Assembly (NCBI GenBank): GCA_030142905.1
Contig: JASJOG010000029.1
Span: 2,352,001 to 2,416,000, forward strand
DNA: 64,000 nt
Origin: Heliopora coerulea
Taxonomy: Eukaryota > Cnidaria > Anthozoa > Scleralcyonacea > Helioporidae
Reading direction: 5' to 3'
Part shown: positions 22,360-63,826 of the stretch, in pieces
Layout of the letters: every line of letters starts with the position of its first letter
How positions within the stretch are numbered: position 1 is the first letter of the stretch
The notes under the pieces: model-generated
Databases searched by the model: none
Told to the model about the DNA's origin: nothing
Seen by the model: only the letters and a program-made list of their open reading frames with translations
Program-made: the position numbers and the translations under genes

Positions 22360-24248
22360 ATGTCATCTATTGAGCCGGATAAAGTCATCTTTAACCATTC
22401 CAGCCGAACACTGACTGAGCAAGAAAAATCCGTACTCGCCAAAGGACTAAACTTCTCGAATCCTCCTAAAACCTTAAACTACTGTGAGTTCTTAATCCCG
22501 TTTGAACTTCTCCACCGACAAATACAACATGAGACTATCTACCCCGAATCTGGGTGTGACCAGGATTTCGTTAAAACTAAATTAAAAGATATAGCACTTT
22601 CTGGCTTCCGTAAATATACCCCACCTCCGTTCATTTTTTCAAACGAAGAATTTAAAATGCTAAAATGTCTTCGAAACGACGACTCTATCTTCATCATTAA
22701 ACCCGACAAAGGAAATGGCGTCGTCGTCATCGATCGAACTGAACCCATCAAGCCCACCTTGAAACGAGAAAATAAAGTCAGAACCTTTCTACGTGAATTG
22801 AAGAACTCCAACGTCATCAACGAGGAACTTTTTAAATCATTAGCACCGACTGGTTCTCGACCCGGCGTGCTATATGAATAACCTAAGATACATAAGTTAA
22901 ATATTCCACTTAGATCTATACTTTCTTCTATTGGCACCCACTCGTATAATCTCGCTAAATTTCTTTTTCCTCTTCTTCGCCCTATTTCCTTTAGTCCATA
23001 CACTATCAGTGATTCATTTTCATTTCTACAAGATTTATTTCAACTGAGCTTTGATAAGAATAATGTCACCATGGCTAGCTTTGATATTAGTTCACTTTTT
23101 ACGAACATACCGTTGGATGAAACCATTGAAATTATCCTTAACCAACTTTTCGATTACAATATTCATTTCCAAAATTTTACTCGCGAACAATTTAAAAAGC
23201 TACTAAATTTAACTGTCAAAAATTGTCACTTTATATTTAACGGAAAATTTTACGAACAACGTGATGGTGTTGCTATGGGCTCCCCTCTAGGTCCCCTTTT
23301 CGCCAACATTTTTCTTTCCTTTCATGAAACTAATTGGCTAAATGATTGTCCCCCTCAATTTAAACCGCTTTATTATCGACGCTATGTTGACGACTCTTTT
23401 ATTTTATTTCGATCCCGCAATCATATTTTACCTTTTTTACATTACCTGAATTGTAAACAACCGAATGTCCAATTTACACATGAAATCGAAAAAGATAACT
23501 CTCTTTCCTTCCTCGATATTCAAATCAAATGCTCCGATGATAAATTTTCTTCTTCCGTTTATCGTAAACCGACTTTTACTGGATTGTTTACAAATTTTGA
23601 GAGTTTTATTCCACTCATATAAGAAAGGCTTAATTTTAACTTTGCTTTTTCGTTATTTTAATCTCTGTTCTTCTTATACCATCTTTCATGAAGAACTAGA
23701 GAAATTTAAAAGTATTATGATTCGGAATGGTTATCCTATCAAATTCTTAGATAATTGTTTTCGCAATTTTTTCAATAAAATTTTCTGCCCAGCTTCTACA
23801 ACGACCTCGGTACCTAAACGCATTATTTTCTTTACTCTACCATTCATCGGTCAACATTCTCTTCAGATTCGCAAACAAGTCGCTAAACTTTTTGCTTTTG
23901 CTTTCCCTCAAATTCAGCTTCGAATCATATTTAAACCTATTCGATGTCTTTCAAGATTTTTCCGTTTTAAAGATCAAATTCCTCTTGCACTAAGATCTCG
24001 CGTGGTTTACAAATTCAAGTGTCAATGCTGTGAGTCATTCTATATAGTTGAAACTATTGCCATTTAAAGCGCGTGTTTCTGAACACATGGGAGTTTCTGT
24101 TTACACGGGAAAGCCTATCCCCGTCACCACTTTATCTGCTGTTTTAACACGCCACAAACAGACTGGCCACCCTGTTTCTATGACTGATTTTTCTATTCTA
24201 AGCTCCTGTTCTAATTTTGAACTCCTTCTCAGAGAGTCTACTTATTAA
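22360..24248 (+). pseudogene. PLE protein: N-terminal domain, RT and GIY-YIG (frame-damaged)
   Basis: Order: N-terminal region (22360-22881) with IIKPDKGNGVVVID; a stop where GLPK-type sequence should read (near 22879-22890, followed by PKIHKLNIPL); the RT core with SLFTNIPLDET, GVAMGSPLGPLFANIF and YRRYVDDSF (23071-23622); a frameshift near 23620; the RT thumb (to about 24000); then a weakened GIY-YIG with FKCQCCESFYIVE in place of the usual YVGQT-type box; and a C-terminal LLRESTY tail to 24248. About three lesions. The protein is related to the PLE at 30-31.5 kb. Confidence 0.88.
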
Positions 24249-28177: not shown

Positions 28178-29576
28178 TCAGTAATTGATATGCCGCCTGA
28201 GATTGGCAGGCAAGGTAACTACACCTTTACGATTAAGATGCAAGCCAACAGCATTTAGACCATCATTACGAATATTGCTATTGTCAATAAAGTCTAAGTT
28301 GTTCTGCTCACAATAATCTTTCAATTGTTGGTTTACCTGGTAAACTTTATCATTGAGGGGTTTGTCCTTTCTTTGGATAATGCTCGAAATTGCAATACTT
28401 ACTGCAGAATGATCCTTCTTGATATTTTCTGTTAATTTTTCCACCTTGCTCTTAATTTTTCTCGGGCTATCATTCTGCAAGTTGTTTGTCCCAGCGTGAA
28501 GGATGATGCTGTCTGGCTTTCTTCGTAGAACGGGTTTCACATGGTCTTCTAGGTCTTCAGTGGTAGCACCAGAGAAAGAGTGAGACTTCACAAGCACGGA
28601 CTTTGAGAGCTTCCTTGGGTCGATATGTTTTGTCATGGATTCTCCTACGATCACAACTTTCCTCTTATCCTCTTGGCTATTTCCATTAGACCTGCTGTCT
28701 GATGTCTTACGATTTGGCTGGTTAGATCTTGTTGGGCTCGATGTCCTTCTTTTGGTCCTGTTGTCCTTACTGCCAGTGCCATGTTGTTTGGTAGGGCTTG
28801 ATTTTCTTCCTTTTCTGGTCACTTTAACCCATGTTTCTTCATCGTTGTTAGGGGTGTTATTGACTGGGGTTGTCACTTCATGGTCTTGACTTAGCAATTT
28901 TATGGTCGCCACCAAGCTGGTACGTTCTTCCTCGAGTTCTTTTTCTCTGGATGATAGCGCTTCGCATGAAGTGCAGGCTTGGTGGGACTTTGAACTTTGG
29001 CAACTGCGTTCAAGTATTTCCAATTTCGCCCAAATTTTATGGATTTCTTGCAAATTTCTTGCACACCCGGAGCAAGGAGTATTGCGTTTGCCGTCTGTAG
29101 TTTCGACATTACCATGAGCATCAACTCGGTCATTCAAAATTACGACGTCCTCGTCGTCTTTCCCATCGGAATTATGGCGCTCGCCATTTTCTCCTGTCAC
29201 GTGGTCGTCAGGGATTTCGCTAGAATTTTCGTTTGATTGAGACAGGAACATCTTCCTGGTGGTCTCTTCCTAGGTTCCTTTAAGAGCAATTGTTTTTGTG
29301 CCAGGATAGAACAGAAGAGTGACAGAGTCAGCTTTGAAAACATGAATTCCTCCGTTACTCGTGGTAAAACTCCACGAATTAGGTCAAGCTCAGCTTCTCA
29401 TCCACGAAGTGTTTTAAGCTATGTAGGTCGTCCAGCCACTTAATCTTTAATCTGAGGCCAACCTTTTCAACTAAGAAAAGTTTCTCAAAACTTTTTTCGT
29501 TGTTATCAATCGAATTATCTTTCCCAGTTAGTGACATTGTTGATAGCGACTCAGAACCTTCCTGACACGACGCCAT
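28178..29576 (-). pseudogene. LINE ORF1 with SGNH esterase-like domain, one frame lesion
   Basis: Starts at ATG 29576 (MASCQEGSE), directly next to the (GATA)n array. A stop at about 29379 and a frame change lead into a 357-codon frame (29251-28178). This has an acidic stretch, a Cys-rich CSGC...CTSC segment, a short coiled coil (SSREKELEEERTSL), a basic Ser/Lys-rich linker and a C-terminal SGNH hydrolase fold: VIVGESMTKH (nucleophile Ser block), ILHAGTNNL and GLHLN. Esterase-bearing ORF1 proteins are typical of CR1-group LINEs. They bind the LINE RNA; the role of the esterase is unsettled. Confidence 0.85.
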
Positions 29577-32894: not shown

Positions 32895-33118
32895 CAGTGG
32901 AGAGATGGTGGCATAGGAATGGTTTATGTGTCTTATTTAAGTAACTCGGGTTTGATTCCGGCTCCGTGCACTTCTCTGATTGAAGTTACCTTGATCACAT
33001 GTGAGAAGAGTGTTTTCGAGTTTGACTCTACCAAACATCGTTGGTTTTCTCCTGGTACGTCGGTTTCCCCCTGTAGTACTACTGGGTCCACGAGGAGTGG
33101 TCCTTACTAAACTTCTTG
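32895..33118 (+). mobile_element. tRNA-derived SINE, copy 2 (diverged)
   Basis: Same body as copy 1 (CTCTGATTGAAGTTACCTTG, GGTTTTCTCCTGGTACG, TACTACTGGGTCCACGAGGA) with a degraded A box and a B-box-like GGTTTGATTCCGG. It ends exactly where copy B of the duplication begins. Confidence 0.75.
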
Positions 33119-33119
33119 T

Positions 33120-35032
33120 TGGAATAGATTAGAATGCAACTGACAGCTCTGACTCAACATGTATGCCTGCATGCAAACTGAACTATGCAATTGCCCGTCC
33201 GTCTGATATTAATGAAGTAGTGTAGAAGTTAAATTGAATGGTAATATTTGTATTAAATTGAATGAAATAAAAACGTTCAGATAGTAATACGGTCATATAG
33301 CTCAAAATCCCTTATGATTACTGGTATGTATTTAGTTTACGTATTGTCGCTAGGGTTCGGGAAACACGTGCTTGTGTGTCCAATTAATTTCGTTCAGTTT
33401 TTGAAAGGATACAATATTCTAGCAAATTACGTTGGATATCCCTTAATCAAAATGACTTAACTGAGCCCCAAGTTTTTTCGTATTTAGAGCTTCAAGGCGA
33501 CATTGATGAGTAAGAGGTGTTGAGAGTAGTATGATAAACTGAAGATTATATATTGTAGAATGGCAGGTGGTCTAAACGTAGCGTAAGAAAATGTTTGGTA
33601 GTGTTTGCAGTCCATGATCTAAAACATCTTAAGAAACAAGAAGACACATGCGCTAATAACGAGAGAAAGCGAGCCCGTGTGTGTGTGTGTGTGTGTGTGT
33701 GTAAATGTGTTGGCTGTTTCGCGTTCCTCCAACCATTGAAATGATGAAGTGGTCCTATTTCGGACTTTCAATGAAAAAATCCGAATATTGGTTATGAAAG
33801 GCTCCTATTTCAATCACTAAACTCCCCATATCAGCTATGTAGGGGCCCTACACCAGTGTCCAAACTCTTCTTCGACTCCCTAGTATCAGTTGTGGGTGGT
33901 GGATTACTATTTGATTGCCTGCGTGCTGTGCAGTTCCAGTATGAAGAGCCCTTGTTTCAGTTACTATAGTACACTATATCAGAGATCAAACTTTCTGATA
34001 TCAAAATCCCTTTCAAAATTAAAAAAGGCTCCTACTTCATGGACCAAAATCCCCATATCTCTTAAGAAGGGCCTCTACTTCAATGATCAAAGTTCACGTA
34101 TATCAGTCCTAAAGACAAGGCCGCGCCGACTGGATGAGATGGTGGTGCAACAGTGTAGAATTGCAATATTCTATATTAATATCCCGAAGTTTGAAACTAA
34201 AAATTGTAAGGACTGTTTTAGTAGATTTGTTGTGGGCAACTGGGCCAGTCCACGTACATTTAGCTTTGTGAAGAAACGCATCTAGGTAGGGGTCCAAGAC
34301 CTTAATATTCCACCCACCCTCTCCCCTCCACCACAATGATCAAACCTTTGGCAAGACACTGAAACGAGTATGTTTCAAATACTAATGATATATGTTGCGA
34401 AGAAATCTAACTTAACCAATACGTGTCGCTAGGTTTGCTCTTGCACTCGATAGTTTAAGTGCTCATGTGTTTGTTCTTCCCCCTTTTTTGTCTTTTCGTA
34501 TCTTTACATTCTAATATTTTATTATTCTGCTTTAGAGCTTTGGGTATAATTTTTTCCTCATATGTATATATAGGTAAAGAGTTTTATCATTTCTATCGAA
34601 TATTCCCAGTCAAGACCATGCTCGCAATCTACGACACGTTAGCAATTTTTTGTTCTAGTTCTGATTGTCTCCTGTCAATATAATTTTCCATTTAAAAGTT
34701 TTAGCTTGACTCTAGTCGAAGAAGAAATACCAAAGCCAGGAGGAATACTCTAATTTAAAGCGATAAACACGATAAAGGTTTTAAAATATTTAATAGATCT
34801 AACTTTCCGTTGTTTGAAAGCTTCAATCCTTCCATTACGGTTCCTGCCTGATTCCTGCCTTGACTCCCTTGTTTACTTTCTAGCACCTTTCATTGCAGTC
34901 CTTTAATTGAATCGAATAACCCACAAGATCTATATCTAAAGCAATTATGTCTATAATCTTACTGTTCAAGAGAGGCATTTCCACAGAATTTCCTTTATTC
35001 TTAAGTTTTGAATTAGGTTGAAACGTTTTACG
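33120..35032. other. Non-coding downstream flank of P450-B
   Basis: Collinear with 1881-2800 and 5445-7170 minus their insertions. It includes a B-specific segment (about 33600-33790) with a GT microsatellite. The unfilled ISL2EU site is near 34278-34286 and the unfilled piggyBac TTAA is at 34903-34906. No conserved reading frame. Confidence 0.6.
33677..33702. repeat. Microsatellite (GT)n
   Basis: Thirteen GT units in copy-B-specific sequence. Confidence 0.95.
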
Positions 35033-36508
35033 TTATTGTACTCGCTTTGTTGCGATCAGTTTGTAAGGTAATGGAAAGCGTACCGCACTTGTCTCGCCAT
35101 CAAAGGTCGGTTTTGGCTCTTCATCTGTTGTTTTGAAACGAAACTGGTGTAAAAGCCTCGCGACAATGACGAATACTTGTATTTTTGCCAAAGCTTGACC
35201 AACACAAGCCCGACGACCTGCACCAAATGGAAGAAAACTCTGAAAGGCGTTCCATCCAACGAACTTTCCATCTGAATTGATAAATCGTTCAGGCTTGAAC
35301 AAGCTCGGCTCTTTCCATTCATCAGGATCGTAATGGATCCTCCAGTAGTTGAAAAGCACCATGGTGTTCTCAGGTACATGATAACCAGCAATGACTGAAT
35401 CCCTGATTGACTTGTGTGGCCCAGAAAATGGTGCAAATGTCGAGTGGCGCATCACCTCGCAGATGGTCGCTTGAAGGAAAGGTAGCTTTTCAGAATCGTG
35501 GAAACATGGAAACCGATCTCTTCCGACGACTAGATCGAGCTCCTGGTGTATCTTATCTTGGACTTCTTCGTGCCGGATCATGTAAAGTAGTAACCATGTA
35601 ATAATGGAAGAGCTTGTATCACTGGAGCCAATGAACATGTCTACCAGTATAAACCTTAAGTCGTCAATGGTGCCCAATCCTTTGTTTCGGTTTTTATCCT
35701 TCTCATTCTCGTACGACTGAATGAGGGCGTCAGTGATGTCTCGAACTGTGCCTTCAGTGTACGTCTCAAAGTGATCATTGAGCTTGGACCAGAAAACGTC
35801 TTTAATGATGGATTTGGCCAGCGCAAAACGCTTCATGTATTCGGTCGGTAAATATTTGAGAAATGGGAGAATTTGATAATAACTGCCCTGACGGTTGAGG
35901 TAGAGCATATTTTTATTGAAAGTGTAAAGTTTTTCTAAAACTGGATCCCCGAACTCGTATCTTTCAGAGAAAAGCCAGTCGAGGATTATGCTGATCATCG
36001 TCATCATGACATATTTTTTCGGAAAAAACGGTTGATTTATTCCTTCTATTTCTTCTAATAACCAACGGACTTCCCTGTTTACTCTGTCTTCGGCTGTGCG
36101 TTTTCCTTCACCGAAAATGTGTAAAGCTGAAATGACCAGTTTACGACGAAATGGAAGAAAAGGTCCATAGTCTCCGACCAGGAGGTCTTTACTTTCGAGC
36201 AGGTCGTACGCTGGGAAGAACTGAGGACGACCTGCGAAATCATCTTTTTTCGTCACCAGTGCCTCTTGCGCCAACTTCCCGTTGTTCACAATCACGATAT
36301 CTCCGACTGGAGTAACCACTGTATATGTTTCCCCGTACTGTTTGCGAAGCTTCTCCATTGAAAAAGGTGGATCTGATCCTAACTGGTAAATGTTGCCAAC
36401 GAAAGGAAGAGGAAAAGGACCTGGTGGCATTTTTCTACGTTTTATGTAAGTGACCGCTGACCAGAGGATCGAAGTGATCACTGACAATAGAATAACTTCG
36501 ACTAGCAT
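35033..36508 (-). CDS. Cytochrome P450 B, CYP2-clan-like, microsomal (single exon)
   Basis: 491 codons, no intron, same architecture as P450-A: N-terminal anchor, PPGP hinge (28-31), ExxR (351-354), PERF (406-409) and heme loop FGAGRRACVG with Cys435. The I-helix reads GSSDTS (294-299), with the canonical Thr298 after D297 where P450-A has Ser. By eye about 44 of 491 residues differ from P450-A, in blocks: ten between 100 and 117 (B-C loop, SRS1), seven between 289 and 302 (I-helix, SRS4), ten between 353 and 395 (SRS5 region), two at 473-475 (SRS6). Long stretches between are identical. A TTCTAG acceptor-like tract also precedes this ATG by three bases. It lies 15.5 kb from the terpene cyclase, on the opposite strand. 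Role in terpene oxidation is inferred; the substrate is unknown. Confidence 0.95.
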   Translation of the reverse strand: MLVEVILLSVITSILWSAVTYIKRRKMPPGPFPLPFVGNIYQLGSDPPFSMEKLRKQYGETYTVVTPVGDIVIVNNGKLAQEALVTKKDDFAGRPQFFPAYDLLESKDLLVGDYGPFLPFRRKLVISALHIFGEGKRTAEDRVNREVRWLLEEIEGINQPFFPKKYVMMTMISIILDWLFSERYEFGDPVLEKLYTFNKNMLYLNRQGSYYQILPFLKYLPTEYMKRFALAKSIIKDVFWSKLNDHFETYTEGTVRDITDALIQSYENEKDKNRNKGLGTIDDLRFILVDMFIGSSDTSSSIITWLLLYMIRHEEVQDKIHQELDLVVGRDRFPCFHDSEKLPFLQATICEVMRHSTFAPFSGPHKSIRDSVIAGYHVPENTMVLFNYWRIHYDPDEWKEPSLFKPERFINSDGKFVGWNAFQSFLPFGAGRRACVGQALAKIQVFVIVARLLHQFRFKTTDEEPKPTFDGETSAVRFPLPYKLIATKRVQ

Positions 36509-36840
36509 GGCCTAGAACATCGGAATGAAAATTTATTTTCAAAACGTACCGCTTGAGAGGTGGTACACTGACGGTGTTCAAAGTATCATTGACACACTTA
36601 AGGGAAAATTGAATTTGTTTGTAGATTACATTCACGTCCGGCTATTCTTTTGTCCATTCGTGCCCGCGTCTGTTTTTGAGCTTGACCTTGGCATTTTCCT
36701 TGAGAGTTTATGTCGGAGTGTTTTGATTATAGTGGGATGTTTTGATAACATTTGGATTTTTATTTAATTATATTGGAATATTTTGATCATTCTAGGATGT
36801 GTAGACAATGCATGATTATTTTTACTATATTGGAGTGTTT
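36509..36840 (-). promoter_or_regulatory. Conserved 5' flank of P450-B (putative UTR/intron/promoter)
   Basis: Collinear with the flank of P450-A. It keeps the pyrimidine tract and AG before the ATG and the TGTTTTGATTATAGTGGGAT region. No core promoter element can be fixed by eye. Confidence 0.4.
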
Positions 36841-37039
36841 TGAACAGTCGAAGGTGTTTTGATAGACAGTTTTAACTGCATTGAGTCTTTTCCTTCTATA
36901 AGATATCGTATTTGACGGTGTAAAAGATTGGATAACGTCGTTCCTTAACTTTTTTAACTTTCTTGACGTATTTTCATTCATGTGTTGATATGAAACAAAC
37001 ATTCATCTTCGCAATGAACCTACGCTGCGGAAGTCAACG

Positions 37040-37125
37040 GAAAAGTTAACTCGAGCGGGATTTGAACTCGCACCATGAGGATACCGGTGTGACGCCCTAC
37101 CTGTTGAGCTATCGAGTCCCCAAAG
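37040..37125 (-). mobile_element. tRNA-derived SINE piece at the LINE 5' side
   Basis: The minus strand reads GGGGACTCGATAGCTCAACAGG (a good A box in TAGCTCAACAGG) and then GAGTTCAAATCCCGCTCGAG (B box). Acceptor-stem pairing is poor, so it is a SINE head and not a functional tRNA. Same family as 42275-42375. Confidence 0.65.
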
Positions 37126-37344
37126 ACCGGAGGTGAGTTTTATCCAATTTAATTGCACGAGATATTCTCGCGACAACTTAACGCTATCCATGAGGACGGA
37201 TATACAGTGCTTCAATTCTATTTCAGAATCATCCTCAGGGTATTATGAAACGAAAACTTCACAATTAATCTACACTGCCATTGGCATTCTTCATAACGAC
37301 TCTGAAGCACACAACAAGACAGGCATCGACGAAGTTCTGTAAAG

Positions 37345-39195
37345 ATGGCGGATGGGAGTCCAAATATTTGTACAACAAACGAAGCAAATTGTGCTCTTAG
37401 TGAGACATTGTTTGATAAAGCAAGCGAGTGCTTAACAGCAAAGTGTCCTAACCTTGTCTTTGACGGAATGATATATCGCTGGAAAGGAAATTTATCGGAA
37501 TTAAAGTCCTATTTCGAAATCGATCTGAAACTACATGGCACATGGAGCTCGCCTGGGGGCGAAGCAAAAGTATTTAAGTCATGTGAAGACTTGAGTGTGA
37601 AATGGCATGGTCGAAAATCTAAAAAGATTGTTATAGTGAAGGACAACGATGAAGGACAGCTGTCGAAGTTATTTCGGGAACATGCCCACAACATCTTGTT
37701 GGATTGTCACGATAAATGCAGCGATAAGCAAGAGCTGGCGAAGGATATGCAGATATCGTTAAATAACACAAGTGATAAAACCGATGCTTGTGTTAAAACA
37801 GTTAACGATAGACTTACAGAACTACATTTGAGGATACAGAATATTGAAGAGAAGTTGATGTGTAAAGTGAATCTCGTTATGGATGAGCTCTATGAATTAA
37901 AAAGCCGAACTATAAATTCTATTTATGAGCAACGAATAGATATGCTAGAAGAAAGAAATCGTAAACTCGAGAAAGAAAATGAGACACTGAATGATAAATT
38001 TATGGCTAGTTCATGTATAATTTCTGACTTAAATACCAAAATCAAAGATCTCGAGACCGATAAAATGAGCCTAGTGGCATCAATTAAACTAATACAAATT
38101 CATGATGATTATTATGTAGAGTCATGTACAAGCAACAAGACAACACAAATAGGTGACGATCCTGGATCAAGTAAACCGGACTTGTGCACAATTAATAATG
38201 AAAATAATAATAGACAATGTAGTCTAAAGCGTAAATATAAACCGAAGAAGTATCAAACAGAAGAATCATCTATGGATCAAACTATCAATAGCAGGTCGAT
38301 GCCACCAGAAGGTGATGTATTGACAGTAAACAATCGTTTCTCGATATTGAGTGATATAGACAACCAAGAGGACTTATTAGTTGTTAACCAAGCGAGACCC
38401 TCTGGGAATGAGGATGATCAAATTCAAGATAGTCGTGTCCAAACCGATAACAATGAAGATAAACAAATGAAAGATAATAGTTCCCATGGAAGTGGTGCAA
38501 CTGCTGGTGGTCGGTTTGTTGATAATACAAGTGAACAAGTGTCACCCGACACCTTCAGGAGAAAGTCCAGATCAATAGAGAAGCCTTGTGTCGTTGTGGT
38601 AGGTGATTCAATGATTAAGCATGTGGATCCAAAGAAACTGTCTAAGAAGAAGGTATATAAATACACCTATCCAGGAGAGACAGCTGAAAGTATTTCAACT
38701 AAAGTGTCCACTCTCAACCCTCAGATTCACCCATCACACGTAATTATTCATGTTGGAACTAACAACATTCCAATAGATTCTCCAGAAGAGTGTGCCCAGG
38801 AAATTGGGAACCTTGCTGCAAACGTGAAGCAGAAATTTCCCCACGCGGAGATTGCTTTATCGGGCATAATTCAAAGGCAAGACATGCAAGTAGCAGGTAA
38901 AATTGAAGAAGTTAACAAAATCCTGAAGCAGAAATGCTTGAGTGACGGTATGTCTTTTATTGATAATTCTAGTATTGATAATACATGCCTTAACGGCAGT
39001 AATATTCATCTGAATGCAAAGGGAACAGCCTTTTTAGCTACAAAGTTTATTAAATTCTTAAGAGGTAATCAACACTGGATGTCAAGTTCTCGAAATGAGG
39101 ATTTTCACATGTCAACATTACATCAATTAGGGAACCTACTGAGGATGATAACTACCTCTCCGGTGCACAAGCACAGGAAAAGAAAGCAAGTGTAG
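37345..39195 (+). CDS. LINE ORF1 protein: coiled coil + SGNH esterase-like domain (intact)
   Basis: 616 codons from ATG 37345. The N-terminal about 100 residues (VFDGMIYRWKGNLSELKSYF) form a conserved module also seen, degraded, in the minus-strand LINE. Then comes a heptad-rich region (about 140-250; ERNRKLEKENETLNDKF) predicted as a coiled coil for trimerisation, a long polar linker with Asn/Asp/Gln runs, and a C-terminal SGNH hydrolase domain: VVVVGDSMIKHVD (Ser nucleophile), IIHVGTNNIP and NIHLNAKG with the catalytic His. Esterase-type ORF1 is characteristic of CR1-clade LINEs; it coats LINE RNA in the cytoplasmic particle. There is no lesion, so the copy may be young. The 3' end overlaps the open ORF2 frame by about 95 nt. 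Confidence 0.93.
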   Translation: MADGSPNICTTNEANCALSETLFDKASECLTAKCPNLVFDGMIYRWKGNLSELKSYFEIDLKLHGTWSSPGGEAKVFKSCEDLSVKWHGRKSKKIVIVKDNDEGQLSKLFREHAHNILLDCHDKCSDKQELAKDMQISLNNTSDKTDACVKTVNDRLTELHLRIQNIEEKLMCKVNLVMDELYELKSRTINSIYEQRIDMLEERNRKLEKENETLNDKFMASSCIISDLNTKIKDLETDKMSLVASIKLIQIHDDYYVESCTSNKTTQIGDDPGSSKPDLCTINNENNNRQCSLKRKYKPKKYQTEESSMDQTINSRSMPPEGDVLTVNNRFSILSDIDNQEDLLVVNQARPSGNEDDQIQDSRVQTDNNEDKQMKDNSSHGSGATAGGRFVDNTSEQVSPDTFRRKSRSIEKPCVVVVGDSMIKHVDPKKLSKKKVYKYTYPGETAESISTKVSTLNPQIHPSHVIIHVGTNNIPIDSPEECAQEIGNLAANVKQKFPHAEIALSGIIQRQDMQVAGKIEEVNKILKQKCLSDGMSFIDNSSIDNTCLNGSNIHLNAKGTAFLATKFIKFLRGNQHWMSSSRNEDFHMSTLHQLGNLLRMITTSPVHKHRKRKQV

Positions 39196-39359
39196 ATTCG
39201 TATCATAATTTATTAACTACTAAAGATGAAAATATTTTATTAGGGAGTGAATTCCATCATGAAAGCTTACCCGTGGGCAGCAGTCCAATTATAAATCAAG
39301 GTGCCTTTTTAAATTCAATTGATGAGATTTCTAGTGTTAAGGCTATTAAAGGTTTCAAA

Positions 39360-42218
39360 ATGGCAGCGTTAAACATCACAAGTTTGATCAAGCATTTCGA
39401 TGAGCTAACTGCAATGATGTCTAATCAACCCTTTGACATCCTTGCAGTTAACGAAACACGACTTAGTGATGATATTCCAAATTATGAGATTTCTCTACCT
39501 GGTTATAATACTGTGCGTAAAGATCGAAATAGACATGGTGGTGGGGTTTTGATGTATATTAAAGACATTTGGAATTATTCAATTAAAAATTTTGGTAGCG
39601 ATCTTGAAATTCTAACTATTGAAATAATTGGAAAATTTATTAAACCCTTTTGTGTTACAACATGGTATAGACCTCCTGGTAGCGATAGTAATAGTTTGGA
39701 GCAATTCGAGGAGTACCTTGCCAAACTTGATATATTGGATAATAATGAATCGATAATCTTAGGTGACTTTAACTGCAACTTATTGGATGAACACTCGACA
39801 TCACATATTTCTAAACTGACTGCTTTATATGATGAGTATCAATACAAACAATTAATTAAAGAGCCCACACGTATTACAAGTGACACACAGTCTCTAATTG
39901 ATCACATAATTACTACCGTCCCACATCGTATTCGGGAAAGTGGCGTCTGCACTTTATCAATTAGTGATCATAATTTAGTCTATGCTGTTCGACGCTTGAT
40001 TGCTCCCAAAGAAAAACCCAGGATAATAGAGGTCCGTAATTATAGAAATTTTAATGCTAATCAATTTATAAATGACCTTAGTAAAGTGCCCTGGGACATG
40101 ATAGAACTTTCTGATGATCCCAATGAAATGTGGCTTGTGTGGAAAACTTTGTTTATTAAGATTTTGGATATTCATGCTCCTCTTAAAACTAAACGTGTAA
40201 GAAACTTAGAAGCTCCATGGTTAACTTCTGACCTAAAAGCACTAATGTTTCGTAGAGATCAATTAAAAAGACGTGCAGCCAAAAATCGGTCCCAAATAAG
40301 TTGGCACTTATATCAGTCCGCTAGAAATGAAGTGAATAATAAAATCAAGATCGCGAAATCTAATTATTTCACTAGTAATTTAGAAGCGAATAAAAGTGAT
40401 ATTAAAAAGACTTGGAAGCTACTTAACAGTCTATTAAAAAAGCCCACAAAATCAACAAATGTCAATTTGCTGAAGGTAGACGGCAATATTATTACTGATT
40501 GTATAACTATTGCAGAAAATTTTAACAATCATTTTGTTGATATTGGCCCAAAACTAGCCGATCAGATTCCGCATATCACATGTGATTCCACGGATTGTTT
40601 ACAACTAACGAGCAATATTTTCAAGTTTAAACATATTAGTCCAGGTTATGTAGCAAATCTAATTCACAAAATGCCGTCAAATAAAGCAACAGGTCTGGAT
40701 AAAATTCCATGCCAAATATTGAAAACTTCTGTGACTATTATTTCAGAACCATTATCCAAAATTTTCAACAAGTCTATTTCCTCGGGAATTTTTGTTGATG
40801 ACTGGAAAAAAGCTAAAGTTACGCCAATTTATAAAGAAGGCGATAAATGTGACCTGAATAATTACAGACCTATTTCAGTTTTGTCCGTGGTCTCCAAAAT
40901 TTTTGAGAAGATTGTTTTTTCACAGTTTTACAGTTATCTTAATACAAACAATCTTTTGACAGTTCATCAATCAGGTTTTCGCCCATTTCATTCCACGTTA
41001 ACTGCCTTGCTCAAGGATACTATGTACTGGCTAAACAACATGGATAATGGTAAAATTAATATCGCAGTGTTTGTAGATTTAAAAAAAGCTTTTGACACTG
41101 TCGATCACCACATTTTATTGGGTAAACTGAAATTTTACGGTGTTTTCGAAAATGAACTTAACTGGTTTCAATCCTATCTTCATAACAGGACCCAGCAAAG
41201 TTTTGTCAATGGAGCAGTTTCTACAACACGAACATTAAAATGTGGTGTTCCCCAAGGCTCTATTTTGGGCCCATTATTATTATTTCTAATCTTCATAAAC
41301 GACTTGCCCGGGTGCCTATCATTTACTCTCCCTAGTATGTATGCTGACGATACCAGTCTTACATCAGGAGACACTGATGTTAGGTATCTTGAAAGCAAAT
41401 TCAATGCTGACCTAGCAAATCTTAATGACTGGTTGACAGCTAATCGTCTTAGCCTAAACAGTATTAAGAGTGAATATATGATTATCGGCTCGGCTAAAAG
41501 AATTGCTAAATTAGAATCTGATCCCAATCTTTTCTTGGGTCAAGTTACTTTAAAGAGAGTAAGATACAAAAAGATCCTCGGGGTAATTGTTGATGAAAAT
41601 CTGAAATGGCATGAACATGTTGAAAATGTATGTAAAAAAGTTAAAAAGGGTCTAGGAATCTTGAGAAGAATACGCGATTATGTGCTACGTGACTCCCTTA
41701 TTAAGATTTACAATGCCATTGTGCAGCCCCATTTTGATTATTACTCATCATTATGGGACACATGTGGTAAGGGCCTTAAAGACAAACTTCAAAAATTACA
41801 AAACAGAGCGAGCCGGATAATTACCCGCTCAGGCTATGAGATCAGATCCGAGGACACGTTAGCGCAATTAGGATGGCAAAAACTTGAAGATCGTTGGTTG
41901 GCAAACAAAGCCACCCTAATGTATAAAATAACTCACAATTTGGCTCCTTCGTATCTCTCAGAAAAATTCTCAACAAGAGATACAGTACATGACTACAACA
42001 CTAGAGGTAATTTGATTAATCTTTCTATCCCCAAACCTAACACCAATTTCCTTAAGTCCAGTCTAGTCTACGGGGGAGCAATATGCTGGAATTCGCTCCC
42101 TGAAGATCTTAAGTCTAGTTCTAATATAGATGTCTTTAAGAAAAATATTAAGTCAAAATGTGTAAATTTTTACTTTTTAAACCTCACGGCTCTCCAGAAG
42201 AGCATTTTTTTTGGATAA
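39360..42218 (+). CDS. LINE ORF2: endonuclease + reverse transcriptase (intact)
   Basis: The frame is open from 39101 to 42218. The first ATG is at 39360 in good context (AAAATGG), just before the endonuclease starts (ALNITSLIKHFDEL); 39273 has only a GTG. EEP endonuclease landmarks: VNETRL, RKDRNRHGGGV, WYRPPGS, GDFNCNL, LIDHIIT and SISDHNLVYA. The RT has NNYRPISVLSVVSKIFEK, KKAFDTVDHH, GVPQGSILGPLL and YADDTSLTSG, then a thumb and a C-terminal region ending FFG. All catalytic motifs are present and no stop or frameshift occurs over more than 2.8 kb, so the copy could be competent. The enzyme nicks target DNA and reverse-transcribes the LINE RNA there. The ORF1-ORF2 overlap without an ATG suggests reinitiation or frameshifting for expression. 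Confidence 0.94.
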   Translation: MAALNITSLIKHFDELTAMMSNQPFDILAVNETRLSDDIPNYEISLPGYNTVRKDRNRHGGGVLMYIKDIWNYSIKNFGSDLEILTIEIIGKFIKPFCVTTWYRPPGSDSNSLEQFEEYLAKLDILDNNESIILGDFNCNLLDEHSTSHISKLTALYDEYQYKQLIKEPTRITSDTQSLIDHIITTVPHRIRESGVCTLSISDHNLVYAVRRLIAPKEKPRIIEVRNYRNFNANQFINDLSKVPWDMIELSDDPNEMWLVWKTLFIKILDIHAPLKTKRVRNLEAPWLTSDLKALMFRRDQLKRRAAKNRSQISWHLYQSARNEVNNKIKIAKSNYFTSNLEANKSDIKKTWKLLNSLLKKPTKSTNVNLLKVDGNIITDCITIAENFNNHFVDIGPKLADQIPHITCDSTDCLQLTSNIFKFKHISPGYVANLIHKMPSNKATGLDKIPCQILKTSVTIISEPLSKIFNKSISSGIFVDDWKKAKVTPIYKEGDKCDLNNYRPISVLSVVSKIFEKIVFSQFYSYLNTNNLLTVHQSGFRPFHSTLTALLKDTMYWLNNMDNGKINIAVFVDLKKAFDTVDHHILLGKLKFYGVFENELNWFQSYLHNRTQQSFVNGAVSTTRTLKCGVPQGSILGPLLLFLIFINDLPGCLSFTLPSMYADDTSLTSGDTDVRYLESKFNADLANLNDWLTANRLSLNSIKSEYMIIGSAKRIAKLESDPNLFLGQVTLKRVRYKKILGVIVDENLKWHEHVENVCKKVKKGLGILRRIRDYVLRDSLIKIYNAIVQPHFDYYSSLWDTCGKGLKDKLQKLQNRASRIITRSGYEIRSEDTLAQLGWQKLEDRWLANKATLMYKITHNLAPSYLSEKFSTRDTVHDYNTRGNLINLSIPKPNTNFLKSSLVYGGAICWNSLPEDLKSSSNIDVFKKNIKSKCVNFYFLNLTALQKSIFFG

Positions 42219-42274
42219 TGAGTGAGATGTTCCGTGATTAAATAAAGTTCGTAGTAGTAGTAGTACTGCCGAAG

Positions 42275-42375
42275 GCAACTGAAAAGTTGACTCTAGCGGA
42301 ATTTCAACTCGCACCTTCGGGATACCGGTCAGCCGCTCTACCTGTTGAGTTGAGAATCCCGCTCCAGACAACTTT
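42275..42375 (-). mobile_element. tRNA-derived SINE piece at the LINE 3' side
   Basis: The minus strand carries GGGATTCTCAACTCAACAGG, GTAGAGCGGCTGACCGGTAT and GGTGCGAGTTGAAATTCC: A-box and B-box remnants of the family at 37040. It follows the LINE's (GTA)n tail directly. Confidence 0.6.
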
Positions 42376-42446
42376 TCAGTTCACTTTGGCAGTGTAGGTT
42401 AATAGTGATTGTTTCGTTTCATAATACTCTGAGGATGATTTTGGAA

Positions 42447-45400
42447 TGAAAACATTTATCTGATCCTGGACTTTGTACTATTTATCTTTGGACTTAATGC
42501 GACATGCTTTAATCACGTGCTAAGGACATACTTTGTTCATGTGATGTTGTAGTCCACTCAGGCAACAATTTTGAAATTGTTGTCGGAGCATGATACATTT
42601 ACTTTTAGATAAGGCTATGTTACAGTAATTCAACAAATGACAGTCAGTGTTACCTCAAGCCAACTCCAAATACATAACGAAGTACTATTTTTGTGAGGAT
42701 ACTAAACATCATTACACCACGATTATATATAGTTACTCGGGGGTATTAAGTATTGAGAAAGTCTACGTTCGGTTCGCAGCGTGCTTCATCAGACTTTGAT
42801 GTTTTGATCACTTGCCCCCCGAAGTTATATCCTTGCACATTTATCAAAATTGTTTTATTTGATATTATCATGATATTTCTTCTCTCGACAACAGCGTTTC
42901 ATTAAAACATTAGAAAAAATCCTAGTTTCGTCTTGTTATATAATGACAACGTCATCCTTAAATCCAGTTCCATTTTACTGGTTATTCCTACCCTTCAAAC
43001 AATTGCAACTTGATCGCTGAATGATGCTGAGCAGTACCTGGTACAAAGCCTAGACTATGAACCAGTGAACTGATATGATAAATCTAGATTTTGACCCTTC
43101 ATATTTACATTTTAGTTGGTATTTCGTAGTATATATTGCGTTGAAAAAGTGAGTCGAACACCGCTACTGAAATATTTCTTTTCTTTTATTGTTGTTCGCC
43201 ATGACATCCTGTTATTGCTGCGGCAGATTTAGAAGAACGATTTTAACCATTAACCGATCATCATCACAGACACTCATCTCGCTGTCGAGAAGACATAGAA
43301 ACTGTACTAGAATTATTGGGGACTGGATTGATTGGGTAGCTCTGTCCGCCTGATATGTTTAAGACAAATTTAACTACTCGCTGAATTTTCTGCTGGAAAT
43401 CAAATGAAAGTGGTCTAGCAAAGTTTTGAGTTTAGTGAGCTAATCTTAAAAAGGCTCGTTTGGCTAAGATCTTCCGGCTCTATAGTGTGCCCTTTTGAAA
43501 AGGAACTTATAAAATATTTAACCGTGAAACACGAACATGGTCTATAGTGGTTGTGCATTGGATGAAATTACTTTTACGATGTATTGAAACTCCGAGTTGA
43601 TTCATTGGTATCTTAAGAAAAACGATAAAATGATAATTTTTTTAATAATAAAGAAGATTGCATACCTTTAATGAATTTCTCGAAGGTCCAAACAATTATT
43701 TCTTGTCCTTGATTAGGATGCTGAATGAAGTACAATACTGCAGCAGGGGACGTTTTGTATGACAAGAAATGTTCCATCCACTTAATGGAAAGGCTATGAT
43801 TGGTTGATGAGGACAGGGCTACTCTCAGCATGTCAATCCGGTAAAACATCTCCTATTTATCCAAAAGGTGCACTGCGATATTGACAGACTTCATTTAGTG
43901 TTCTGACCAAGAAGAAAGATATAATTGCAAGGAAGTACCAGAAATTCCCTTCAAAAAGTATGTGTTCTTTGTTATTTTGTTGCTATTTTAAAAATAGGAA
44001 TGAATCCACTTTTAACTATGGCATTCTCTTAGCACACAGAAAAACCGTGGTGGAAATAATTGCATCAAATGCACAACACCTTCGACCATGCTCATAATTC
44101 ATAGTAAAATATATGACGAGTTCATTTCCAAAAGATAGAATATGGAGCCTTAAGGCATTAGCAAAATGTATCTTTTGAAGATTAGCTGACAGAACTAACA
44201 AGTTTGCTCAGACCGTTTCCGTTTGATTTTCGGCAGGAAAATGAGGAATGAGGCAAAACTTTGCGGTCAATCGAAATTTCACTAATTCGTGAGCAGTTGC
44301 CGCATGTCGTGTGGGGAAGTTGATGAGTTCAGGTCATGATACCATGATAAGGCTTAAGAAATGTTTAAATCTGCAGCTACAAGAACCAGATGTTTATGGC
44401 GAATAGCAACAAAAACAAAGTTGACTTATAGAACAGTTCCGCATTGGTGTTCCATAAAACGTTCAACGTAATATTTGCCACGGAATACCAATTAAAATGT
44501 AAAATTGAGGGAAGAGAAGTCGAAAAAACAAATAAGCCATTTAGATTTATCATCAGAGGCCATTGGTCCATAGTCCGACTTGAGTATCTGGTACCGCACA
44601 ACAATGTCTAAGTATTACGTAATAAGTCTTTCTGGGAAGGGGAGCACCATTGTAGGTGTAAATGTGAGTTTGAGTTGGTCATTACGTAAAAGAAGTACAT
44701 AAACAAATTTGAAGAGATAAATACGCAAGCATCTTAAATCGGGTGGGAGCGACGCGTTCATTCAGGATTTCATGCATGATGAATCTAATCTGTCTATGCT
44801 CTAAAGTCCTACTTTAATTATGTCAAGCCACGTACACTGATGTATGCCACATAAGCGAAAAACGCCATATAATATAAAGTCATTCATCTTTTCAAATCTG
44901 GAACACGGAGGTCATTAAAATGGAGTGCGAAAATGATCATATTGTCTTATTATCAAATTGTATCCTTCCCTACATATTAGTATAATAATAGGAGTTGTCT
45001 ACATGATTCCCTAGAAGGCTTCATTCAGGATTGAAGTCATACCGAATCTGCTAAAATTCCTTTAGTTGTTTACATGATTCCTGAGTGAGATTAACCTCAT
45101 TTCGAACTGGGTTCATTCCTGGTGTTATCCCGGAATTAAATTTTATTTGGATCTAAAATTTCATTCTGATGCCATGTAAAGGCTGTAGGAGTTTTCATTC
45201 CAGATTGCCGAATGTGAATTGGAGTTTTATTTTCCAAGCTGTTACATACGATTGAATTGAACCCGAAGCTAACAGAGGACTGGAACGTTTCAGGAGTCAT
45301 AAAACAAGTCACAAGTACCAAATACGGTGGATTATAAACCGTGGTTTTTTAAATGCTGAAATTTTATAGGACGTTGTCGTTCTAGTTGACGTCATTGATG

Positions 45401-45453
45401 TCAAAATCCCTATTTACAGATGACAATATGGCGGCAAAGTCCATAAAACCCTC
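42447..45453. other. Non-coding part of the segmental duplication (copy B)
   Basis: Collinear with 12490-14000, 15240-15820 and 18830-19195. Frames are not conserved between the copies. A 67-codon minus frame at 45136-45336 is partly shared with 18913-19086 but ends differently and has no recognisable domain. Confidence 0.55.
42761..42792 (-). ncRNA. Hammerhead-like core in an old PLE end (copy B)
   Basis: Same as 12791-12822, with CTGATGA and a short GAAC second box; likely decayed. Confidence 0.35.
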
Positions 45454-48792: not shown

Positions 48793-49626
48793 TTAGGAAG
48801 CCTTGAGTCCAGAATTTAATTCTGGTTTATTGAATTTGATGCAGAGTGCTTCGATTAGGAGAAGTTTGTTTGTAGTTGTTGAGTTGCTGGAAAAGAGGAT
48901 TTTGTAGTTATTAAAAATTAGGTTTCTCAGAGAAGAGGATAAGCTTTGCGAGAGGGGAACGTTGTTAAGTCGGTCATATTGTGTGTGTAAGTCGGCAAGA
49001 AATTGTGCGGGTTCGCAGTTGAGAAAATGTCGTGCAATAGCGCTGTTGTTATGTTGTGTAGCGTGCTCGGAAAGTCGCGTTTTAAGGCAGCGATTGGTTT
49101 TTCCGATATAAGATTTATTGCAGCCGGGGCATGTAACTTGGTAAACGACTTTATTGCGGGATAGTTCTGGAGTTTTATCTTTGGTTGACGTGAAATACGA
49201 GAGCTTTTTAGTGTTGTAAATGACAATAAATTTCGCGGGTTGCCTAATTTCACCTTGTTTACCAAGATAAGGTATTCGAATCCAAACTTTAAGAACATTA
49301 TCATCAGTAGATGATGTTTGAGAGGAAGGAGAAGCAGCAGAGTTACATTTGCGTTTAAGCTTTTTGATGAGTAAGTTTCTTACATGTTTTGGGTAGCCAT
49401 TCCATGACATAAAGGACTTAAGTTGGTTAATTTGTTTGTTTGGAAGTTTCTTGGAGCTGCAGATTTTAACTGCGCGATGGAAAAGTGATTTTATCCAAGC
49501 AGTTTTTCGAGAAGGTTCGAAACTAGAAAAATGTGTATACTGTCCGGTGTGGGTATTTTTAAAATAAACATCCGTACCTGCAGGAGAAATTTTTATGTCT
49601 AAGACATAAAAATTCTTCTTTTGCAA
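48793..49626 (-). pseudogene. PLE C-terminal region: RT thumb + GIY-YIG endonuclease, 5' truncated
   Basis: 277 open codons. Begins after the RT catalytic core (NFYVLDIKIS is the LDI/V-type region following YVDD). It continues through the thumb (LKSFMSWNGYPKHVRNLL), a conserved IPYLGKQGE block and then VTCPGCNKSYIGKTNRCLKT, the CxxC-linked GIY-YIG nuclease with Arg and downstream SEH. It ends in LLLIEALCIKFNKPELNSG. The domain itself looks intact, but RT palm and N-terminus are missing, so no active protein is expected. Related to 14272-15228. Confidence 0.85.
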
Positions 49627-49631
49627 AGTAG

Positions 49632-49705
49632 TGGTTTAGTTTATTTCTGTTTTTAACTGTGGCATTGAGTATTTTTGTGCCTGTTCACCTAGTTTTGGTT
49701 AACCT
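49632..49705. repeat. 75-bp direct repeat, copy 1
   Basis: AGTAGTGGTTTAGTTTATTT ... TTTTTGTGCCTGTTCA recurs at 50091-50160 with few changes. Purpose unknown; the pair brackets about 380 bp of unrecognised sequence. Confidence 0.7.
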
Positions 49706-52011: not shown

Positions 52012-53244
52012 ATGTCGTGTTCTAAGGAGGTCCGAGCTCCACGCAAGTGGGTACAACGCCAAAGGGGAATGCAAAAGGTGAAAGTCGATGATAACCTTAT
52101 ATCCATGGACGAGCTGATTGAATTAGTTGTTGAGTGCGGTTTGTGCGATGAAGCGAGCGTTCAAAAGATGTATGAGCGGACGAACACATATCAATTCATG
52201 TGGACTCTTATTCCCACCGTTCCATCTGATCAATGGCAGTTTGAGATTTTTAAAACTAGCCTGCACTTTCTCTGTGCTCTGTTTCTCGTCGATGATGCCG
52301 TTGAAAGTTACAGTGAAAAGCAGATGAAGGAAATGAGCGATGCTTACGACATGCTGGAGAAACAAGTATGTGAAAAATTCCCATGCTTCCCATCCATCAA
52401 CGAAATGAAGCAGTCACTGAAGCATTTGAAGAACCCGTTTGATATAGCCTCCATCACTTTTTGTATGCACTACGTCAACAAGATAGCTTCTGTCCTTGTA
52501 AATGAAGGAAGTACTCCTCAGAATGTAGTGTATAACTTTAGACGTAGAAGGTCTAATGCAATATCAATCAGCTTCCAGGCCGTCCTGATTAAAGCAAAAC
52601 TGGGGAGCAATGTCACTGGCGACGAAATGTTATGGAGACGAGTTTATGATGGTCTTGTTATTCTGTTTTATCAATTCGGGGAATTGGTATTAGGTTTGAC
52701 GAAAAACACTGAAAAATATATGACAGTCATTACCGAGCTACGTTTGCTAGGCTGTTTATATTGCATCGTGATCAATGATTTGTACTCATACCATCGAGAC
52801 AAGCTAGTTTCGTCGGACAATATTATCAAAACATGGTTACTCGGAAAGGTTGTATCTAATTTGTCCGAGGCCTCCTCAAGATGTTGTGAAATCCTCGATG
52901 CTGTCATGCAGTATATGCATGAAAGAGTGGAGCGGATCCGACAAAGTTATCCAGGCTGCCCAGAGCTTGAAGCTTTGTTAGAAACAACAGTTTACACAAC
53001 CGTTGGTTGGATTTTTGCTCATACAGCTGTTGTTCCAAGATATTCCGAATCACCTCTCAAAGTTCATCTGGTCGAAGTGGAAGAAAGTGAGTTACATACT
53101 TGGTTTTGTGAAAAGAATCATTATGGACGGAGTGTTATCCAAAAGTTCTTGAAAGCTGTAAATGACGAAAAGCACCAAGGAATTCTCGATGCCTTATCAG
53201 GGTTTGTCGATGGACGTGGACAGCTTCTTAAAACTCAATTGTAA
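52012..53244 (+). CDS. Class I terpene cyclase (octocoral-type terpene synthase), single exon
   Basis: 410 codons, no intron, no signal or transit peptide. All class I landmarks are in the right order: aspartate-rich DDAVE (D94, D95, E98), a diphosphate-sensor Arg candidate R209 exactly 46 residues before the NSE box, the metal-binding triad NDLYSYHRD (N255, S259, D263), and a C-terminal RY pair (R343, Y344) about 80 residues after the triad. This spacing fits microbial-type and coral terpene cyclases, which bind three Mg2+ and ionise FPP or GGPP in the cytosol. Length about 400 fits octocoral cyclases. The product cannot be told from sequence; a diterpene or sesquiterpene scaffold is expected. 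Neighbours are transposons, with P450-B 15.5 kb away. No AATAAA is seen within 300 bp after the stop. An N-terminal basic stretch (RAPRKWVQRQRG) is unexplained. Confidence 0.93.
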   Translation: MSCSKEVRAPRKWVQRQRGMQKVKVDDNLISMDELIELVVECGLCDEASVQKMYERTNTYQFMWTLIPTVPSDQWQFEIFKTSLHFLCALFLVDDAVESYSEKQMKEMSDAYDMLEKQVCEKFPCFPSINEMKQSLKHLKNPFDIASITFCMHYVNKIASVLVNEGSTPQNVVYNFRRRRSNAISISFQAVLIKAKLGSNVTGDEMLWRRVYDGLVILFYQFGELVLGLTKNTEKYMTVITELRLLGCLYCIVINDLYSYHRDKLVSSDNIIKTWLLGKVVSNLSEASSRCCEILDAVMQYMHERVERIRQSYPGCPELEALLETTVYTTVGWIFAHTAVVPRYSESPLKVHLVEVEESELHTWFCEKNHYGRSVIQKFLKAVNDEKHQGILDALSGFVDGRGQLLKTQL

Positions 53245-53500: not shown

Positions 53501-53649
53501 CTTTCAAGGACAACAAAATACGACAAGCAAACCTTCTTCAAAATACGGGCGACAGAGGTACCAGGCGGGAATCGCAGACGGAGAAGAAATAATAAAGCCC
53601 AGCAAAAAACACGCAAAATAGGCATATTAAAGGTTTAAAATGTATTTCT

Positions 53650-53680
53650 AACGTTTCGTTGCTACACGCAACATCCTCAG
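53650..53680 (-). ncRNA. Hammerhead ribozyme motif, left arm
   Basis: Minus strand: CTGAGGA, TGTTGC...GCAAC stem, GAAAC, GTTAG. Core intact. Confidence 0.72.
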
Positions 53681-54130
53681 AGAATGAATGAAAAACTATA
53701 TTACAAGGTGATGATATATTACATGATAAGTAAACGAGATATTGGCGTAGGAGCGGATGTGGGGAGGGCACAAGGAAACAGCGAACTGAGATGTAATGGA
53801 AGGATCGAGAAACGAAAGGTCTTAAAATAAAAAGAGTGGAGAAGAGCCCATGTTGGCATTAAGTAATGGATTGAGTTTGCGGATAAGCAGACTTTCTCTG
53901 ACGAGAAGTTCAGAGAAAGTCTGCTTATCCGCAAACTCAATCCATCACTTAATGCCAACATGGGCTCTTCTCCACTCTTTTTATTTTAAGACCTTTCGTT
54001 TCCCGACCCTTCCATTACATCTCAGTCTGCTGTTTCCTTGTGCCCTCCCCACATCCGCTCCTACGCCAATATCTCGTTTACTTATCATGTAATATATCAT
54101 CACCTTGTAATATAGTTTTTCATTCATTCT

Positions 54131-54161
54131 CTGAGGATGTTGCGTGTAGCAACGAAACGTT
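54131..54161 (+). ncRNA. Hammerhead ribozyme motif, right arm
   Basis: CTGAGGA, TGTTGCGTGTAGCAAC, GAAAC, GTTAG; inverted twin of the motif at 53650-53680. Confidence 0.74.
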
Positions 54162-54578
54162 AGAAATACATTTTAAACCTTTAATATGCCTATTTTGCGT
54201 GTTTTTTGCTGGGCTTTATTATTTCTTCTCCGTAAGCAAACCTTCTGTAAATTCTGTAGAAAGAAGACGGAGTAGAGGGAAGTAAAAGACGTACTTTTTC
54301 CCACTGTAAAACATTCGTAAACAGGAAAATGGCGTAGCATACGAACCTTCAACTTTTACGTATTTTCAACGAAGCGTTCATCGTCACGTCAACACAAAGA
54401 GTTCGACGGTGAATTTACAGAAAGAATACGGCTTTATACTTTCAAAATTTCTTGTGAGGTGTTAAAATCCTGATTAAAGCATTACTGGTCAAACAAGGTA
54501 AAGGTAATCATCCACAATCCACCCGAACAGTGAGAAAGACTGAAGCAGACAACATTTTCGCCAAAGGATAGTTTGATC

Positions 54579-63109: not shown

Positions 63110-63826
63110 AGATCACCAATTTTAAATTATTCTAGTTGGTGATCTGAATTGTGACTTTTTAAATAAGGATCTCCCACAGACTAAAGCTCTGGATGAGTTT
63201 TTACTTCCAAACCAACTGGTACAACTTATTTCGGAACCTACTTGGCAAACGAACTTTTCGCAAGCCCTAATAGATGTACTGATTACCTCTACTCCTGAGT
63301 TATTTACTGATAACGGAATAACCATTTTCGGAATTAGTGATCATTTCCCTATTTACGGTGTGTTATCGCAAAAACTAGAGGTGACTAAACATCGATTTCT
63401 ATCAAGCCGACGATTGGATGAAAAATGTGGTCAAGCCTCTATTTAGTCTGTTAATCAAATTTCCTGGAGTCTTATGGACATCTCAAATGATTCATCCGTT
63501 AAATCAATTTTTTGGGAAAAAGCTGTTTGCGCCGGTAAATTTTTCCATATAAAAAGAAAGAGAATAATAAAGATAACTTATCCGTGGATTAACTAAGTAT
63601 TGATATTAATGCGTAAACGGGATCGTGGAAAGAAAAATTCGTTAAAAAGTAAACTTGATGTTCATTATAACAACTACAAGCATCTTAGAAACGATGTCAC
63701 CAGTACCATTCGTAACGGTCGAATCCAATACTTCAAAGTAAAGCTGGCTAACATCTCGGGGAAATCCAAGCGCGTTTTGGAAGCTTGTGAAATTAATGTT
63801 ACCCTCAAAGCGTGCGACGGGTGATG
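63110..63826 (+). pseudogene. CR1-group LINE ORF2 endonuclease fragment
   Basis: From about 63130 the frame reads LVGDLNCDFL, KALDEFLLPNQLVQLISEPT, ALIDVLITSTPE and FGISDHFPIYGVLS: the second half of the LINE EEP endonuclease (GDxNCD, ID, SDH). Stops follow near 63446. A later frame (63600-63824) gives the linker (YNNYKHLRNDV, RIQYFKVKLAN). No RT. A 20-bp inverted repeat (63101-63120 against 63136-63155) sits at the 5' break, suggesting a snap-back junction. Confidence 0.78.

Follow-up and report, generated by a model that had tools for sequence, protein, structure and literature searches.

A tandem array of diterpene cyclase and cytochrome P450 genes with differing P450 substrate pockets in the octocoral Heliopora coerulea

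The closest described system is the helioporin locus of Heliopora coerulea itself, in which one elisabethatriene synthase gene, HcTC3, adjoins a tandem-duplicated cytochrome P450, HcCYP (Scesa and Schmidt, JACS 2025; PMC11784711). P450s of the HcCYP/AeCYP class turn elisabethatriene into dihydroxyerogorgiaene (PMC11784711). Among cyclases of known structure, PcTS1 of Paramuricea clavata (PDB 8ZWZ) forms a product with the biflorane skeleton and the absolute configuration of elisabethatriene (PMC11864185), and ErTC-2 (PDB 7S5L) is a cembrene A synthase. The elisabethatriene synthases make up subclade 1-I (Burkhardt et al. 2025; PMC12685057), and many diterpene cyclases give sesquiterpenes as well, from FPP in vitro (PMC12685057).

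The DNA analysed here, the window, is a stretch of 64,000 nucleotides (C212:2352001-2416000, GC 36.9%) from a 2.42-Mb contig of the H. coerulea draft genome, a HiFi assembly of 429.9 Mb in 769 contigs with a GC content of 37.4% (PMC10267220). Searches of the coral's own genome covered 769 contigs and 429,824,877 bases. The initial annotation had read one open reading frame (ORF) of the window as an animal-encoded class I terpene cyclase in a single exon, and it is confirmed as a genuine octocoral-type cyclase encoded by the animal (Table 1). The ORF begins with ATG and, as the single-exon reading required, no intron interrupts its alignment with full-length homologues from one end to the other; nothing relevant was found in the literature on introns of octocoral terpene genes. 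The DDAVE motif, the NDxxSxxxD triad and the C-terminal RY pair (R343-Y344) named at that stage all align to the catalytic motif residues of PcTS1, and DDxxE, NDxxSxxxD and RY are invariant at conserved positions in 11/11 aligned octocoral cyclase sequences. The sensor arginine described as lying 46 residues before the triad corresponds to R209; the adjacent R210, 45 residues before N255, aligns with PcTS1 R212, which is critical by mutagenesis (PMC11864185), and both arginines are invariant across the 11-sequence alignment.

Table 1. Features of the window discussed in the text (positions are those of the window).
Feature	Position	Strand	Remarks
Intact intronless cytochrome P450, copy a, type A, 491 aa	7170..8645	-	substrate-recognition sites rewritten
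Intact intronless cytochrome P450, copy b, type B, 491 aa	35033..36508	-	pocket like that of nearest relatives
Tandem segmental duplication, first copy, carries P450	1878..19192		from self-comparison
Tandem segmental duplication, second copy	33116..45450		interrupted by LINE-type retrotransposon at about 36953-42449
Class I diterpene cyclase gene, highly probable HcTC3-type elisabethatriene synthase	52012..53244	+	intact, single exon, 410 aa
DDAVE metal-binding motif, residues 94-98	52291..52305	+	counted from ORF start
NDLYSYHRD metal-binding triad, residues 255-263 (N255/S259/D263)	52774..52800	+	counted from ORF start

A sequence search of the PDB returned PcTS1 as the closest solved structure (E 1.1e-191, residues 7-409), followed by the cembrene A synthase (E 2.6e-93); a match at the former value to a solved coral diterpene synthase rules out chance. 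In the profile search suggested at the outset, Pfam PF19086 scored 19.2, under its cut-off of 23.7, and a thresholded profile scan would therefore miss the gene. AlphaFold2 models were built on the 11-sequence alignment and the best of five was taken (pLDDT 85.6, pTM 0.88; the other four had pLDDT 80.8, 79.7, 62.6 and 58.7). In Foldseek the best model matched 8ZWZ with a TM of 0.94 and 7S5L with 0.85; the next matches, at about 0.5, were class I terpene synthases of microbes. The model thus has the all-alpha class I terpene synthase fold that the initial annotation had anticipated.

Bacteria commonly have class I terpene synthases, and the weak Pfam match is to a general terpene synthase family, as might be seen if the cyclase were bacterial or symbiont contamination. 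Against this, the gene lies on a 2.42-Mb coral contig among LINE, THAP/DDE and GIY-YIG elements, with flanks that are not bacterial, and the neighbouring P450s have animal CYP17, CYP2 and CYP1 as their closest PDB matches. Bacterial and archaeal genomes (84,980 in all) were also scanned by pattern, a method limited to close relatives, and none was confirmed. Given the animal-type flanks and the lack of a confirmed close relative among these genomes, contamination was rejected as extremely improbable, in agreement with the earlier placing of the gene among animal-type transposons.

In a tree of 17 coral cyclases, a check proposed beforehand, the window ORF fell with P0001, PcTS1, P0003, P0004 and P0005 in one clade with 100/100 support. 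Judging from PcTS1 and HcTC3, this clade would correspond to subclade 1-I. ErTC-2 has the same motifs and fold but is 39-40% identical and falls apart from this clade, on a separate fully supported branch. PcTS1 is 68% identical over the full length with the same motifs, and 25/28 of its named motif, diphosphate and pocket residues are identical in the window cyclase. The pocket residues agree at 11/14 positions; the window cyclase has T57 for I59, S187 for A189 and A336 for S338. P0001 is identical to the window ORF at 405/410 positions and to PcTS1 at 283/412. Because the latter value, 68.69%, equals the identity printed for HcTC-3 and PcTS1 (Chen et al., Sci. Adv. 2025; PMC11864185), P0001 is very probably HcTC-3 or its allele, the basis being the matching percentage and not a sequence record.

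The three pocket substitutions might lead the window cyclase to another diterpene, either an isomer of elisabethatriene or a different scaffold, as changed products were obtained with the I59L and S338I mutants of PcTS1 (PMC11864185) and a clade member from Antillogorgia acerosa makes the isomer isoelisabethatriene C (PMC11784711). The same three residues are, however, common to P0001, probably HcTC-3, and to all four intact cyclase copies of the genome, and the subclade 1-I enzymes tested, together with the reconstructed ancestor, made elisabethatriene (PMC12685057). We consider a different product very unlikely, and a new cyclase product was discarded as the leading reading since the substitutions are shared with P0001. 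The suggestion that the product was not known and might represent a new activity is therefore not upheld, given the well-supported clade with PcTS1 and the near-identity to what is very probably HcTC-3. As the kind of enzyme, the species and the locus are all published (HcTC3, PcTS1), a new cyclase activity is unlikely and the cyclase adds little by itself.

We infer the product of the window copy, and the P450 copies that would act on it, as follows. The cyclase would bind GGPP by way of Mg2+ coordinated by DDAVE and NDLYSYHRD. GGPP would then be ionised and enter a PcTS1-type cascade of 1,10- and then 1,6-closure with hydride shifts, and the released pyrophosphate would finally remove a proton, leaving elisabethatriene. 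Clade membership and the constancy of the pocket suggest that the cyclase copies supply one scaffold. The adjoining type-B P450s would oxidise elisabethatriene towards dihydroxyerogorgiaene, the helioporin precursor. We hold it highly likely that the window ORF is one copy of the HcTC3-type elisabethatriene synthase. The type-A P450s, with their rewritten pockets, probably accept another substrate, or might act at another position, plausibly on a later helioporin intermediate.

The cyclase is present in six copies on C212, from 2049916 to 2405241, over 355 kb. Four are intact, 94.6-100% identical to the window ORF and identical to each other at 28/28 residues checked; of the two broken copies one has a stop and an E-to-K change in DDxxE, and the other is in pieces with a stop. 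Pairwise dN/dS among three intact copies (L001, L002 and L003) is 0.09-0.15, indicating purifying selection on these sequences. The fourth, L004 (C212:2171928-2173151), is an intact 408-aa copy with a two-residue deletion. Its dN/dS against the other intact copies is 0.20-0.64, the highest value being that against L002 (12 replacement and 5 synonymous changes), and it is possibly diverging or decaying. Seven more distant cyclase loci (27-35%), some of them broken, lie on C357, C93, C754, C326 and C343 (19/19 candidates scored).

All close P450 copies found are also on C212, between 2005200 and 2388508. At least six are intact (2039961, 2161969, 2205614, 2256364, 2359173 and 2387036) and at least five disrupted (2110906, 2209133, 2310736, 2075013/2076308, and pieces at 2005200-2010786); these counts are lower bounds, as 87 of the 103 candidates were scored (E cut-off 1e-60). 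The six intact paralogues are about 90-97% identical, and the best P450 outside the array is 54% identical, among the 87 of 103 candidates scored. Each of the six cyclases, all on the plus strand, is preceded at a distance of 8.5-15.5 kb by a minus-strand P450 copy in divergent orientation, which is intact in some cases and broken in others. Outside the window, the array DNA covered was 2030001-2230000, 2300001-2320000, 2340001-2350000, the gene at 2256361 and the cyclase loci.

This locus resembles the published helioporin locus in species, in having a cyclase beside a tandem-duplicated P450 and in the probable elisabethatriene product, but the published one comprises one HcTC3 and a tandem-duplicated HcCYP (PMC11784711). 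Here there are six cyclases and at least 11 P450 copies or remnants in a 0.4-Mb array, with differing P450 pockets. Such a cyclase-P450 array is not mentioned in the titles and abstract openings of the relevant literature found, and a large repeated array with differing, reshuffled P450 active sites looks new.

The two window P450s, tandem-duplicated and co-localised with the probable elisabethatriene synthase gene, are 91% identical. They belong to segmental duplications which in a self-comparison of the window appear as colinear blocks of 83-94% identity. A P450 tree of 42 rows (copies a and b with 40/41 of the database proteins P0011-P0051, P0039 being left out for length) placed both in a 100/100 clade with P0011, P0012, P0013 and P0015, and the Dendronephthya P450s outside it; the tree contains no characterised oxidase as a marker.

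The differences between copies a and b are concentrated in the substrate-recognition sites (SRS). SRS 1, 4, 5 and 6 were considered, without SRS2 and SRS3, and amount to 60/491 positions. The conserved Arg, Thr, ExxR Arg and haem Cys served as anchors for their placement, with limits which we take to be the CYP2C9 bounds of Gotoh. The clustering was first noticed in the list of a-b differences and tested afterwards. The copies differ at 20/60 SRS and 24/431 other sites (odds ratio 8.5, p 5e-9), and dN/dS is 1.06 inside the SRS and 0.23 outside (dN 0.026, dS 0.115). The enrichment persists with narrower or wider bounds and with any single SRS dropped (p <= 2e-4), and when the SRS mask is shifted along the P450, 6/490 shifts reach the observed value.

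Control comparisons of 14 P450 pairs included five distant pairs with the reverse pattern, in which the SRS are depleted of differences: b vs P0011 (7/60 SRS, 156/429 other), b vs P0013 (16/60, 180/430), P0011 vs P0013 (14/60, 174/429), P0013 vs P0015 (3/60, 63/347) and P0014 vs P0016 (5/60, 107/430). Neither depletion nor enrichment was significant for a-P0011, a-P0013, b-P0014, a-P0014, b-P0018 and P0018-P0020. The fragment P0012 is SRS-enriched against copy a (10/41 vs 13/294) and not significantly so against copy b (5/41 vs 14/294, p 0.068). When the 44 a-b differences were polarised with P0011, P0013 and P0015 as outgroups, 25 were derived in a and 6 in b, with 13 unresolved; a first count that had P0014 as an additional outgroup gave 22 and 6. 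Inside the SRS 17 changes fall on copy a and none on copy b, and outside 8 and 6. These counts suggest that a duplicated oxidase of the copy-a type may have been acquiring a new specificity. Type-B P450s such as copy b, which have the same kind of pocket as their nearest relatives, appear better candidates than type A for the published elisabethatriene oxidase.

The other intact copies fall largely into the same two pocket types. Copies b, d and e (type B) have 0/60 SRS amino-acid differences in all three pairs, with 8 synonymous SRS changes between b and d, 8 between b and e and none between d and e; the three pairs are not independent. Copies a and c (type A) have 12 derived SRS residues in common that set them apart from b, d and e (17 diagnostic sites in all), including a Thr-to-Ser change in the I helix, and both are intact and keep the haem-binding Cys motif. 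The pair counts exclude the broken copy f; the informative-site counts exclude copy f and the 2209 fragment and were made before copy i was known. In a wider pocket set (SRS bounds extended, plus codons 371, 389 and 390, chosen after seeing the data), two-state informative sites among five intact copies separate a and c from b, d and e at 19 positions and d and e from the rest at 5. Outside the pocket, 5 informative sites support a+c, 5 support a+b, and every other split has at most 3. The pocket tree has the A/B split at 100/100, and trees of the rest of the gene lack a well-supported A/B split; the gene bodies therefore do not clearly follow the pocket type.

An array of two clean P450 types did not accommodate the sixth intact copy, copy i (2256361-2257836), in which 13 of the 17 diagnostic sites resemble type B and 4 resemble type A, and the copies are better described as a mosaic series. 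Its SRS4 and SRS5 are B-like, SRS6 is A-like and SRS1 is its own; against b, d and e it differs at 6/60 SRS and 16-17/431 other sites (p 0.04-0.05). In a broken P450 at 2310482-2311953 the sequence up to residue 337 is largely A-like and that from residue 353 largely B-like. In all, three intact copies of the array share one pocket, two carry a rewritten pocket, and two more, of which one is intact and the other broken, mix both. P0012, a 335-aa database fragment, has a B-like SRS1 and a mostly A-like I helix. Its mosaic could be explained by short-read chimerism; that explanation does not hold for the mosaic copies in the contig, which come from a HiFi assembly (PMC10267220), unless the assembly is wrong there. 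A distant paralogue as the source of the copy-a pocket was rejected, as none matched the B-C loop clearly better than the sister copies: among the 120 P450 homologues listed, the best was P0052 (10/19), with copy b and P0012 at 9/19.

The type-A pockets might instead have diverged through relaxed constraint and decay in surplus P450 copies, with no new function. Several copies of both the cyclase and the P450 in the array are plainly broken, the numbers of substitutions are low, and a and c compared with each other have no significant SRS enrichment (9/60 vs 36/431, p 0.098). Decay does not readily account for copy a having changed about as much as copy b outside the SRS and so much more inside them, for the low dN relative to dS between a and b outside the SRS, or for two intact genes with the haem-binding Cys motif having the 12 derived pocket residues in common. 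We regard decay as rather unlikely. The pattern is more suggestive of an exchange of pocket segments between array copies combined with selection on the pocket. Our tentative reading, which we put forward as a possibility, is that the cyclase of the helioporin locus, a tandem array, has been held constant while combinatorial shuffling of substrate-recognition segments has diversified its partner P450s.

If this is true, an animal would be diversifying its defensive chemistry through gene conversion and selection on oxidase pockets in a metabolic gene array. The array provides six intact P450 paralogues as a natural series, in two forms that are distinguished chiefly by the substrate pocket, next to cyclases that are unchanged at the active-site residues checked. 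It would allow a direct test of the diversification of an animal terpenoid pathway downstream of a fixed scaffold. It may also supply oxidases for later steps of helioporin and pseudopterosin formation, for which the published account, in the parts available, gives no genes (PMC11784711).

A second cyclase-P450 neighbourhood, also a duplicated pair, lies at C343:91702-119364 (L011, L012). Its P450s (91702-93180 and 113831-115306, plus strand) are 53-54% identical to window copy b, and its cyclases (95556-96719 and 118198-119364, minus strand), each 2-3 kb from a P450, are 27% identical to the window cyclase.

Besides the cyclase, 29 window ORFs, hand-picked from the ORF lists, were scanned against Pfam. 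They include the two P450s, retrotransposon and transposase domains, a SAP domain (3007-3360) and two GDSL-lipase matches; 11 have no Pfam match at threshold, and 14936-15202 and 63126-63443 have a sub-cut-off match only. No further tailoring enzyme was recognised among these 29 ORFs, and multi-exon genes could escape such a scan. The GDSL-lipase matches, at 28181-29251 and 37345-39192 (the latter at 31.6 bits, under the cut-off of 32.9), both adjoin endonuclease/reverse-transcriptase ORFs, and we take them to be LINE ORF1. GIY-YIG ORFs at 14275-14916 and 48796-49635 (both minus strand) and a reverse-transcriptase ORF at 22882-23619 (plus strand) are, in our view, reminiscent of Penelope-like elements. 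THAP, HTH_Tnp_4 and DDE_Tnp_4 domains in separate overlapping ORFs at 3911-5539 (minus strand) are probably a decayed transposon. A 656-bp palindrome at 53578-54233, 97% identical to its own reverse complement and beginning 333 bp past the cyclase stop codon, is probably a fold-back transposable element. An Rfam tRNA match (37047-37118, minus strand, 40.2 bits) is found at the 5' edge of the LINE that interrupts the second duplication copy, and an 84-bp stretch near the 3' end of this LINE (42266-42349) is 83% similar to the tRNA-match region.
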